Positions 22,390-25,133 of a DNA stretch of 64,000 bases are shown here, in pieces. Below the pieces are notes generated by a model. The model had not been told where the DNA came from, did no database searches, and saw nothing but the letters and a program-made list of their open reading frames with translations. How positions within the stretch are numbered: the stretch's first letter is position 1; each line of letters opens with the position of its first letter. The DNA comes from Limisalsivibrio acetivorans (GTDB lineage Bacteria; Chrysiogenota; Deferribacteres; Deferribacterales; Geovibrionaceae). Location: the NCBI RefSeq assembly GCF_000421105.1, contig NZ_ATWF01000001.1, positions 1,685,407 to 1,749,406 on the forward strand, read 5' to 3'. The position numbers were made by a program, and so were the translations under genes.

Positions 22390-23376
22390 ATGCAAGATAA
22401 AATAGCCGTAATAGGCGCCGGGAGCTGGGGCACCGCACTCGCCTCCCAGCTCGGTTCAAACGGATATGAAGTAACTATCTACAGCCTTGAGCAGGAGGTT
22501 GCAGACTGCATAAATGAGAAGCACGAAAACTGCCTATTCCTCCCCGGAAACAGGCTCCCCGATACTGTAAGCGGCGACACATTCAACAATATCAGCAAAA
22601 TCGACACAGACAGCATTCTCTGGGCAGTTCCCACTCAGTTCTCAAGAATGCTCGCCATGGAGAATGCAGAAGTTCTCAAAGGGAAACATATAATCATCGC
22701 CACAAAGGGAATCGAGATATCAACGGGGAAGCTCGTTGTAACCATGCTGGAAGAGGCCGCCGAGGCGGACTACAGCATACTTTCAGGACCCTCCTTTGCA
22801 AAGGAGGTAGCCGCCGGAAAGCCAACGGCTGTGAGCATTGCAAATCCAGACAAAGAAATGGCAAAGCGCTGGCAGGAGGCACTCTCCACACCGGCATTCA
22901 GATGCTACTACACCGACGACGTCATTGGAGTTGAAACAGGCGGAGCAATGAAAAACGTTATCGCACTCGCTGCCGGAGCATCGGACGGACTCGGCTTCGG
23001 GCATAACGCAAGGGCCGGCATCATTACACGTGGACTGGCAGAGATAGCAAGACTCGGCGTCGCACTCGGCGGCAAGGCGGAAACCTTCATGGGCCTCTCC
23101 GGCATGGGGGACCTGGTGCTCACATGTACAGGGGATCTCAGCCGTAACCGTCAGGTGGGCCTGAAGCTCGCCGAAGGGCACACCATCGACGATATCACCG
23201 GGAAAATGAATATGGTGGCAGAAGGGGTCTACACCGCCAAAGCGGCCTATGAAATGTCCATTAAACACGGGATCGAAATGCCCATAACCAACGAAGTCTA
23301 TCAGGTTATCTATGAAGGGAAAAATCCCAAAGACTCCGTTATGGCACTCATGGAGCGCCCGCTCAGGGAAGAGTAA
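22390..23376 (+). CDS. gpsA: Glycerol-3-phosphate dehydrogenase [NAD(P)+]
   Basis: A 328-residue cytoplasmic enzyme that makes sn-glycerol-3-phosphate from dihydroxyacetone phosphate for phospholipid synthesis. It has an N-terminal Rossmann motif VIGAGSWGTALASQLG, the catalytic Lys region GGAMKNVIALAAG, and GLSGMGDLVLTCTGDLSRNR. ATG 22390 is preceded by CCGGAG; an upstream in-frame ATG at 22345 would add 15 residues before the Rossmann fold and is rejected. Standard length. The gene is followed directly by a repeat array. Confidence 0.97.
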   Translation: MQDKIAVIGAGSWGTALASQLGSNGYEVTIYSLEQEVADCINEKHENCLFLPGNRLPDTVSGDTFNNISKIDTDSILWAVPTQFSRMLAMENAEVLKGKHIIIATKGIEISTGKLVVTMLEEAAEADYSILSGPSFAKEVAAGKPTAVSIANPDKEMAKRWQEALSTPAFRCYYTDDVIGVETGGAMKNVIALAAGASDGLGFGHNARAGIITRGLAEIARLGVALGGKAETFMGLSGMGDLVLTCTGDLSRNRQVGLKLAEGHTIDDITGKMNMVAEGVYTAKAAYEMSIKHGIEMPITNEVYQVIYEGKNPKDSVMALMERPLREE

Positions 23377-23412
23377 TTTTAATATAGACGCAGGGAGCTT
23401 AGCTTTACCATC

Positions 23413-23666
23413 ATTTTATCTATGGAATTTACCATCCATGGAAATTCCATTGTTGTTCGGGCAAAGAAACTTTGCCCTCTCGTACTTTCGGCTACATAAA
23501 TTGAATACAATTCAATTTAGTTTTGCCTTCAGGGCTGTCTTTATTTTATCTATGGAATTTCCCATCCATGGAAATTCCATCGTTGTTCGGGCAGGGAAAC
23601 CCTGCCCTCTCGTACTTTCGGCTACATAAATTGAATACAATTCAATTTAGTTTCGCCTTCAGGGCT
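23413..23666. repeat. Direct repeat of two 124-base stem-loop units
   Basis: Two copies (23413-23536 and 23543-23666; period 130) differ at only 7 of 124 positions. Each copy has three stem-loops. First, ATGGAATTT / AAATTCCAT encloses CCAT-CC-ATGG. Second is an 8-base stem with an AAA loop (23459-23477; 23589-23607). Third, TAAATTGAAT / ATTCAATTTA has an ACA loop (23497-23519; 23627-23649). In the second stem copy 1 reads GGGCAAAG/CTTTGCCC and copy 2 GGGCAGGG/CCCTGCCC, so two base pairs changed together. Both strands are partly open, but no start or site supports a gene. A REP- or MITE-like element is the best guess. Confidence 0.9.
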
Positions 23667-23729
23667 TCCATCCATGGAAGCCTGTTGCGTATCAACCTCA
23701 CCATGGAAGCCTGTTGCGTATCAACCTCA
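23663..23729. repeat. Palindrome and perfect 29-base tandem repeat
   Basis: GGCTTCCAT / ATGGAAGCC, with a 2-base centre, forms a perfect hairpin (23663-23682). It overlaps two identical 29-base units, 23672-23700 and 23701-23729, each starting CCATGGAAGCC and ending CAACCTCA. The CCATCCATGG core also occurs in both upstream 124-base units (23432, 23562), and its complement partly recurs near 23754. The stretch 23730-23806 shows nothing further. The array extends the non-coding gap between gpsA and ilvE to 474 bases. Confidence 0.85.
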
Positions 23730-23806
23730 AAGGTGTGATTAGCATAAGATTTCATGGATGGAAAATTATTCAGATAGATAAAGATAAAGGAGTTTTTGAG
23801 GGGTTG

Positions 23807-23843
23807 TTAAGGGGAACTTTGTTCCCTAAAAAGTTCCCCTTAA
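23807..23843. terminator. Long hairpin terminator between repeat array and ilvE
   Basis: Perfect 14-base arms TTAAGGGGAACTTT / AAAGTTCCCCTTAA with a 9-base loop. It lies 8 bases past the ilvE stop on the minus strand, with a short T-rich run (GTCTTTT) on the plus side. It probably ends ilvE and perhaps also transcription from gpsA. Confidence 0.75.
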
Positions 23844-23850
23844 GTCTTTT

Positions 23851-24951
23851 CTATAAATCGTAGACGAATCGCCTGTCGACCTTGCGGAGCCAGTTGAGGC
23901 TGTCCTCACGGAGCCCTCTCTGGATACCCGTGTAGGCATCGTAGATCTTCCGGCTTACGGGACCAATCTGTCCATCTCCGACTGTGATCTCACGTCCGTC
24001 TTCGAAGAGGTATGTTCCGACCGCAGAGATAACGGCCGCAGTTCCAAAGCCGCCGGCCTCGACAATATCTCCGTTCTCCACGCCTTTGATGAAGTCATCT
24101 ATCCTGACCTTCTCCTGCACAACCTTGATCCCCAGTTCGGGTGCAAGCTCCATAACGCTTTCAGAGGTAATTGAGCGGAGGATCGTATCGGTGAATTCGG
24201 GGATAACGACCGTTCCATCCTTCATAACGTGGAAGTGGTTCATGGCGCCGCATTCCTCGATATAGGTATTTGTGGTATCGAGGTAAAGCACCTGATTGGC
24301 ACCCTTGCTGTAGGCGTATTCTCCTGCACGCATGGACGCGGCATAGTTTCCGCCTGTTTTGGATGCACCTGTTCCACCGGGGGCGGCTCTGTGGAAACGG
24401 TCTGTGATAAGGAGCTTCACAGGCTCGCTGAATCCTTTGGGATAATAAGGACCGCTGGGTGAGAGTATCACCGAGAATATATACGAATCGCTGGGTTTAA
24501 CGCCGAGCATATCCTGTGTTCCGAAAACAAAGGGGCGGATATACATTGATGCGCCGTCCTGAACGGGACACCAGAGCCTATCCACATCAATAAGAGCCTC
24601 AACCGCTTCCATCTGCATCTCCACAGGTATCTCGGGCATACACACCACTGCGGAGGAGCGGTTCATCCTCTGGGCATTCTTTTCGAAGCGGCACGTGTAT
24701 ATCTCGCCGTCATCATGGAGGAATGCCTTCGCACCCTCAAAGACTTCCTGGGAGTAATGAAGGACAATCGCACCGGGAGCAATGGAAAAATTCTGGTAGG
24801 GCACTATGCGAGCATCCTGCCACTCACCACCCTTATACTCTGCGATGAACATATGATCCGTCCTGAGCTGGCCGAAACTCAAAGGACCCTCGGGAACGAA
24901 CTGCTCCGTTCTCCTTTCCGATTCATTCTTGAGGTTTAGTGATATCTCCAT
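23851..24951 (-). CDS. ilvE: Branched-chain amino acid aminotransferase
   Basis: A 366-residue fold-type IV PLP transaminase of the longer (eukaryote-like, ilvE2) branch that interconverts Val, Leu and Ile with their keto acids. Visible landmarks are VLHYSQEVFEGAKAF, the PLP lysine in GASKTGGNYAAS, EECGAMNHFHV, and EAGGFGTAAVISAVG. Length is normal for this branch. It stands alone between a terminator and the polA promoter region. The 2-oxoacid:ferredoxin oxidoreductase at 38.7-41.3 kb could consume its keto-acid products if it is a VOR; this is inference. Confidence 0.95.
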   Translation of the reverse strand: MEISLNLKNESERRTEQFVPEGPLSFGQLRTDHMFIAEYKGGEWQDARIVPYQNFSIAPGAIVLHYSQEVFEGAKAFLHDDGEIYTCRFEKNAQRMNRSSAVVCMPEIPVEMQMEAVEALIDVDRLWCPVQDGASMYIRPFVFGTQDMLGVKPSDSYIFSVILSPSGPYYPKGFSEPVKLLITDRFHRAAPGGTGASKTGGNYAASMRAGEYAYSKGANQVLYLDTTNTYIEECGAMNHFHVMKDGTVVIPEFTDTILRSITSESVMELAPELGIKVVQEKVRIDDFIKGVENGDIVEAGGFGTAAVISAVGTYLFEDGREITVGDGQIGPVSRKIYDAYTGIQRGLREDSLNWLRKVDRRFVYDL

Positions 24952-25133
24952 AAACTACTCCGATATGATTAGTATTAAGCCTACCGCCTCTTGCGGTTTA
25001 AAGCTCCCTTAACTTACTATAGTCTAATTAAACTCAGCTAGAATGTCAATAGCATAAAACCCTGTTTAATTTAAAGCCGTATACAAATCAAGTGATATAT
25101 TTTACAATACTGCCAAAAAGCAGGTATTTTTTT

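Follow-up and report, generated by a model that had tools for sequence, protein, structure and literature searches.

Intergenic islands of interchangeable hairpins form a modular repeat family in Limisalsivibrio acetivorans and related genera

Introduction

Just behind gpsA in Limisalsivibrio acetivorans a stretch of 124 nucleotides occurs twice in close succession, and several of the differences between the two copies fall on both sides of a stem and leave it paired, raising the question of what keeps the fold while the sequence changes. A first-pass annotation of the window (the whole 64,000-nucleotide stretch analysed, positions 1,685,407 to 1,749,406 of contig NZ_ATWF01000001.1) saw here selection on structure, acting on an RNA or on the hairpin substrate of a REP-type transposase. 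Here we follow the unit from this locus through its own genome and its relatives, and weigh what kind of element it is.

Results

The duplicated unit lies within a 445-bp island

Repeat comparison and folding both agree with the first-pass annotation that two 124-nt copies (23413-23536 and 23543-23666) carry three hairpins each and differ at seven positions, four of these changes being paired and preserving one stem (Table 1). The mismatches lie at unit positions 19, 39, 52, 53, 59, 60 and 112, and the paired changes at 52/53 and 59/60 convert GGGCAAAG/CTTTGCCC to GGGCAGGG/CCCTGCCC while keeping the 8-bp stem. This duplication is not a chance resemblance, since a 26-nt core from the unit occurs twice within the window and never in 100 shuffles, and a 19-nt core of hairpin B, which matches the own genome 74 times at up to one mismatch (37 per strand), has no match genome-wide when its pattern is reversed. 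The end originally assigned at 23666 was however wrong: 14-nt k-mers common to at least three stretches of the own genome cover 437 of the 445 bases from 23413 to about 23857, an island that separates the convergent genes gpsA (+) and ilvE (-). The hairpin at 23807-23843, previously read as the ilvE terminator, is the F2 module of the same repeat family, and scanning 23340-23900 for intrinsic terminators returned none. In two other genera gpsA is followed directly by polA, so the arrangement here, where ilvE (-) and the island intervene (window 23376-25092), differs from theirs.

Table 1. Modules and hairpins of the island behind gpsA, in window coordinates.
Feature	Position	Strand	Basis
Whole island, modules A1-B1-C1, A1-B1-C1-D1-D1', partial E, F2	~23413-23857	+	Shared 14-nt k-mers; module segmentation
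Unit 1 (A-B-C)	23413-23536	+	Repeat search; covariance-model match C1:1708822-1708948, 137 bits
Hairpin A, unit 1, loop ATCCAT	23422-23450	+	Folding; helix 1, 99.5% of cells paired (52 copies)
Hairpin B, unit 1, GGGCAAAG-AAA-CTTTGCCC	23459-23477	+	Folding; helix 2, 4/8 pairs changed both sides
Hairpin C, unit 1, closing GGC/GCC, inner stem 23497-23519	23490-23527	+	Folding; helices 3, 4
Unit 2 (A-B-C, running on into hairpin D)	23543-23666	+	Repeat search; covariance-model match C1:1708952-1709091, 168 bits
Hairpin A, unit 2	23552-23580	+	Folding; covariation in 52 copies
Hairpin B, unit 2, GGGCAGGG-AAA-CCCTGCCC	23589-23607	+	Folding; covariation in 52 copies
Hairpin C, unit 2	23620-23657	+	Folding; covariation in 52 copies
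Hairpin D (GGCTTCC-ATCCAT-GGAAGCC), fourth hairpin of the unit	23663-23682	+	Helix 5, 4/7 pairs changed both sides; slot counts
Two perfect 29-bp copies, right half of D plus linker	23672-23729	+	Repeat search
Partial E module	23730-23790	+	Inverted-repeat search; E modules in other islands
Inverted A-like hairpin arm inside partial E	23750-23776	+	78% complementary to 23417-23443
Module F2, strong hairpin, stem 23807-23843	23791-23845	+	Inverted-repeat search; module counts

Islands across the genome are ordered chains of alternative modules

A DNA search of the own genome (2.97 Mb) gave 127 matches, and the family occupies some 60 intergenic islands whose module clusters total 55.9 kb, or 1.9% of the genome; these totals are lower bounds or estimates, coming from 60 stretches (251 kb) chosen by and read around the matches. 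Segmentation of these stretches by blastn revealed modules in a fixed cyclic order, A-B-C-D-E1-E2-F-G-H-J-K, with alternative versions at each slot: A1 (106) and A2 (88); B1/B1b (74) and B2 (76); C1 to C4 (30, 48, 31 and 32); D1 to D3 (77, 43 and 8); F1 to F3 (50, 23 and 48, together 121); and H1 (27) with J1 (28) or H2 (8) with J2 (8). At other sites the D slot carries the alternatives TTCC/CAAC/CCC. Genome-wide, an alternative B module has 73 matches at up to three mismatches and a module of the G type 35. Modules A to E2 recur together as a block, islands begin and end at many different modules, and the chains reach about 3 kb with a uniform, head-to-tail orientation in 61 of the 65 islands scored.

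Linkage between the alleles of neighbouring slots falls along the unit (Cramer V of 0.77 for A-B, 0.48 for B-C and 0.35 for C-D), and D-F linkage, at 0.12, is not above permutation (mean 0.15). H and J, which base-pair across about 90 nt in one long-range fold, are always matched (Cramer V 1.0, 35/35). Considering that neighbouring slots are partly linked, D and F unlinked and H and J always matched, hairpins appear to be swapped between copies as complete units.

By an approximate, ORF-based placement, 25 islands lie between convergent genes, 16 between co-directional and 2 between divergent ones, with 17 ambiguous, a distribution that fits tolerance away from promoters and equally a role at 3' ends. 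Two IS30-like insertion sequences, of 1073 bp (with 3-bp target duplications) and 1091 bp, sit inside islands, and in the stretches read from the own genome IS30-like copies were seen at eight loci (L031, L032, L042, L059, L061, L069, L076 and L099), several within F and G hairpins; REP palindromes are similarly targeted by other IS families (PMC1525189). A CRISPR array with 12 CRISPR-DR4 repeats adjoins one island (L042:3664-4352; own genome C1, about 1362063-1362752). Two contig ends (G000 C1:410-500 and C2:585037-585126) bear the same island repeat, so the assembly probably breaks at an island.

The fold is shared with other genera while the sequence is not

Exact and near-exact patterns had no match in 11 same-family and 28 same-order genomes, and an exact 20-mer is absent from 84,980 species genomes (own genome left out). 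A covariance model (R1) in turn recovered it from three further genera of this family that exact sequence misses, with at least 63 matches in the own genome, 42 copies in G004, 18 in G007, 9 in G001 and 1-3 each in G002, G005, G006, G008 (weak), G010 and G011; beyond the family it gave one weak match only (G028, E 0.08). The first-pass annotation had made its structural idea depend on further copies, here or in relatives, with the stem conserved; in view of these matches and the strong covariation described below, it was not refuted. The relatives' copies keep the same A-B-(C)-D hairpin order and the same loop with different stem sequences, for example GCAAAAGTT-ATCATCCGTG-AAACTTTTGC, then CGGGCAAAAGAAGCTTTTGCCCTCTC, then GCTTACATCCATGTAAGC in G006.

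Islands in G004, from a sister genus, also hold a palindromic repeat, GTCATTGCGAA...GAAGCAATCTC (L121, L124, L130). A second pattern scan returned 37 stretches, four of them in the Deferribacterales MAG Deferri_01, and most of the 20 examined appear to be chance matches. A possible distant parallel is found in the gammaproteobacterium Stenotrophobium rhamnosiphilum (L148:3035-3180), where an element of about 460 bp is present some 14 times; its ends are inverted over 146 nt, and each contains a CATCCATG-loop hairpin and, after it, ACGCTCGC. The repeat had no phage or plasmid match and was found on no viral contig. A known Rfam RNA was rejected: eight island stretches searched against Rfam 15 at E up to 0.5 returned only two matches below threshold and a CRISPR repeat lying outside the islands, with no curated model matching the islands.

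Stems covary strongly, and the loop keeps its strand

In 52 units from the own genome, over 39 base pairs, 17 pairs are changed on both sides while 95.6% of cells remain paired; double-changed cells number 232 against 81 +/- 9 in shuffles, which ignore relatedness, and sliding the partners by 1-3 columns, a control that keeps it, lowers pairing to 27-56%. Because the copies of one genome are not independent, the cross-genus test weighs more: among 40 aligned copies from relatives, in an alignment fitted to the model and so leaning towards it, 34 of the 39 pairs are double-changed, 93.8% of cells are paired, and 184 cells are double-changed against 47 +/- 5 in shuffles. The covariation behind the conserved structure claimed at the outset stands far above its controls. 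Reading it as selection was too strong, given that G-T intermediates are rare and that template switching within a hairpin yields compensatory double changes in one step (PMC8794818), so that such changes alone are no proof of selection.

The G-T pairs also bear on whether the host keeps these hairpins as RNA, transcribed in 3' untranslated regions as terminators or as RNase barriers or cutting sites and retained for a useful fold. Strong covariation would also follow from such selection, and the scarcity of divergent placements, the strong hairpin of module F at its roughly 121 occurrences and the conservation of structure across genera all fit it. However, contrary to what it predicts for the + strand, G-T is scarce and not favoured over A-C, with 9 against 30 in the 52 own copies (20 of these A-C within helix C) and 18 against 31 in the relatives. 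There is thus no sign of RNA selection on the + strand; it could still act on the opposite strand, where A-C reads as G-U. The negative terminator scan at this locus and the G004 island that a sister species lacks in the orthologous operon (below), which leaves no conserved site-specific role there, also speak against a host RNA, and we consider this explanation unlikely. A coding or in-frame insert was rejected, since the islands are intergenic and, although one frame is open in 49 of the 52 units, codon-position entropies (0.36/0.40/0.40) show no bias; in this the repeat differs from in-frame palindromic elements of the Rickettsia RPE type, which lie inside genes and are translated.

In contrast to the freely varying stems, the loops are conserved in keeping their TCC core: of 40 A hairpins read in relatives, 39 carry the loop CCNTCCNTGG. 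PMC8604942 describes template switching between hairpin arms as able to invert the loop, and we found no inverted loop among the 65 A1, 55 D1 and 32 D2 own-genome hairpins scored in context; one further D2 copy (L037) may be inverted. These counts leave out A2, D2 without context and D1 with relaxed context, for which palindromic stems make orientation meaningless. Loop inversions were likewise rare in an rRNA study (PMC8794818), so their absence here is no more than a hint of selection for the loop on one strand.

An island is missing at an orthologous junction, and high-copy genomes carry no Y1 transposase

In G004 a 451-bp island of three near-identical units interrupts an operon. G001 has no island at the orthologous junction, and only a few bases separate the stop codon there from the next gene's ribosome-binding site, showing that a whole island was gained, or precisely lost, between two species of one genus. 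No target-site duplication was recognised at this sole empty site.

The transposase route proposed in the first-pass annotation, by an IS200/Y1 REP-type enzyme, fares poorly. PF01797 (Y1) has no match in the own genome, G001, G004 or G007, the search being positive in 5 of 14 control genomes; within the family it occurs only in G003, G006, G008 and G009, which have 0-2 element matches, and the genomes without it include those with 63, 42, 18 and 9. REP/REPIN elements moved by a RAYT (Y1) transposase (PMC3116915, PMC3733652) are similar in being palindromic, extragenic, downstream of genes and high in copy, with a conserved folded hairpin and occasional tandem clusters. Here, however, the high-copy genomes lack a RAYT, the unit is made of four different hairpins in one orientation with many slot alleles, and the 52-copy consensus has no conserved GTAG or CGTC tag, a feature of REP/REPIN ends, beside hairpins A, B or D. 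Moreover, copies run head-to-tail and do not form inverted doublets, to which the inverted A/E pair bears a partial resemblance at most. Having looked for a Y1 enzyme, the tag and the inverted doublet and found none of them, we conclude that the repeat falls outside the REP/RAYT family, an origin we regard as very improbable. A retroelement product was also rejected, as PF00078 (reverse transcriptase) has no match in the own genome, G004 or G007.

The islands might instead be ordinary MITEs belonging to a DDE transposon, the A hairpin and the inverted E hairpin serving as terminal inverted repeats. MITEs too are small, non-coding and dispersed, the A and E ends are 78% complementary, the block from A to E2 recurs, and the unrelated gammaproteobacterium has its 14-copy element with 146-nt inverted ends and the same CATCCATG loop. 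Yet the repeat is without fixed ends, as islands terminate at many different modules; in the stretches read, neither a complete parent element nor a transposase beside the islands was seen; the IS30 copies interrupt modules and are not bounded by them; and the one empty site shows no recognisable target duplication. We therefore think a MITE origin improbable, somewhat more so than a host RNA.

Discussion

Taken together, our covariation, segmentation and comparative analyses show that the duplicated unit behind gpsA belongs to a real, structured, lineage-wide modular repeat, which behaves like a REPIN, BIME or BOX element. Similar to BOX of Streptococcus (boxA-boxB-boxC, PMC3049150), it is a modular, folded, intergenic composite with tandem middle modules and alternative modules in related species; it is set apart from BOX, by description, in having ten ordered slots with alternatives and islands of up to about 3 kb, and in belonging to another phylum. 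Similar to the BIMEs of enterobacteria (PMC2817692), it is a mosaic of several palindromic motifs between genes, although BIME motifs alternate in orientation and here orientation is uniform.

We favour, as the probable explanation, a non-autonomous modular hairpin repeat that acts at the DNA level, is inserted into gaps between genes by a non-Y1 activity, grows by tandem duplication and has its modules recombined. The form recognised would most likely be the folded hairpin with its conserved TCC-core loop on one strand, leaving the stem free to change if it pairs. Islands would enter gaps, mostly behind genes, through an enzyme other than a Y1/REP transposase or any reverse transcriptase encoded in the own genome; the empty site shows the insertion of an island, which could in principle be a precise loss, and the enzyme itself we infer. 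Once in place, islands would grow head-to-tail by local tandem duplication, as arrays of near-identical units show, and modules would be swapped between copies by recombination, as the reassortment of slot alleles suggests. Perfect stems might be maintained by the loss or non-spread of broken hairpins together with arm-to-arm template switching during replication.

Our search of the literature on modular hairpin repeats and on this bacterial group found no description of such an element, and the family seems to represent a type of non-autonomous repeat not previously described in bacteria, spreading without the transposase that moves similar repeats. At present we can go further only tentatively: that these chains, in which interchangeable hairpins with oriented TCC loops follow one another head-to-tail, constitute a distinct class of bacterial mobile DNA, moved by an enzyme acting on folded DNA (neither Y1 nor reverse transcriptase), of ancient standing in Deferribacterota and perhaps more widespread in view of the CATCCATG-loop element of a gammaproteobacterium, is a possibility we hold as doubtful. 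If the favoured explanation is true, high-copy hairpin repeats would spread without the transposase thought necessary for REP-like repeats, and the islands would provide a natural experiment showing how hairpins stay perfect while their sequence changes, through selection on the fold or through copying from arm to arm.
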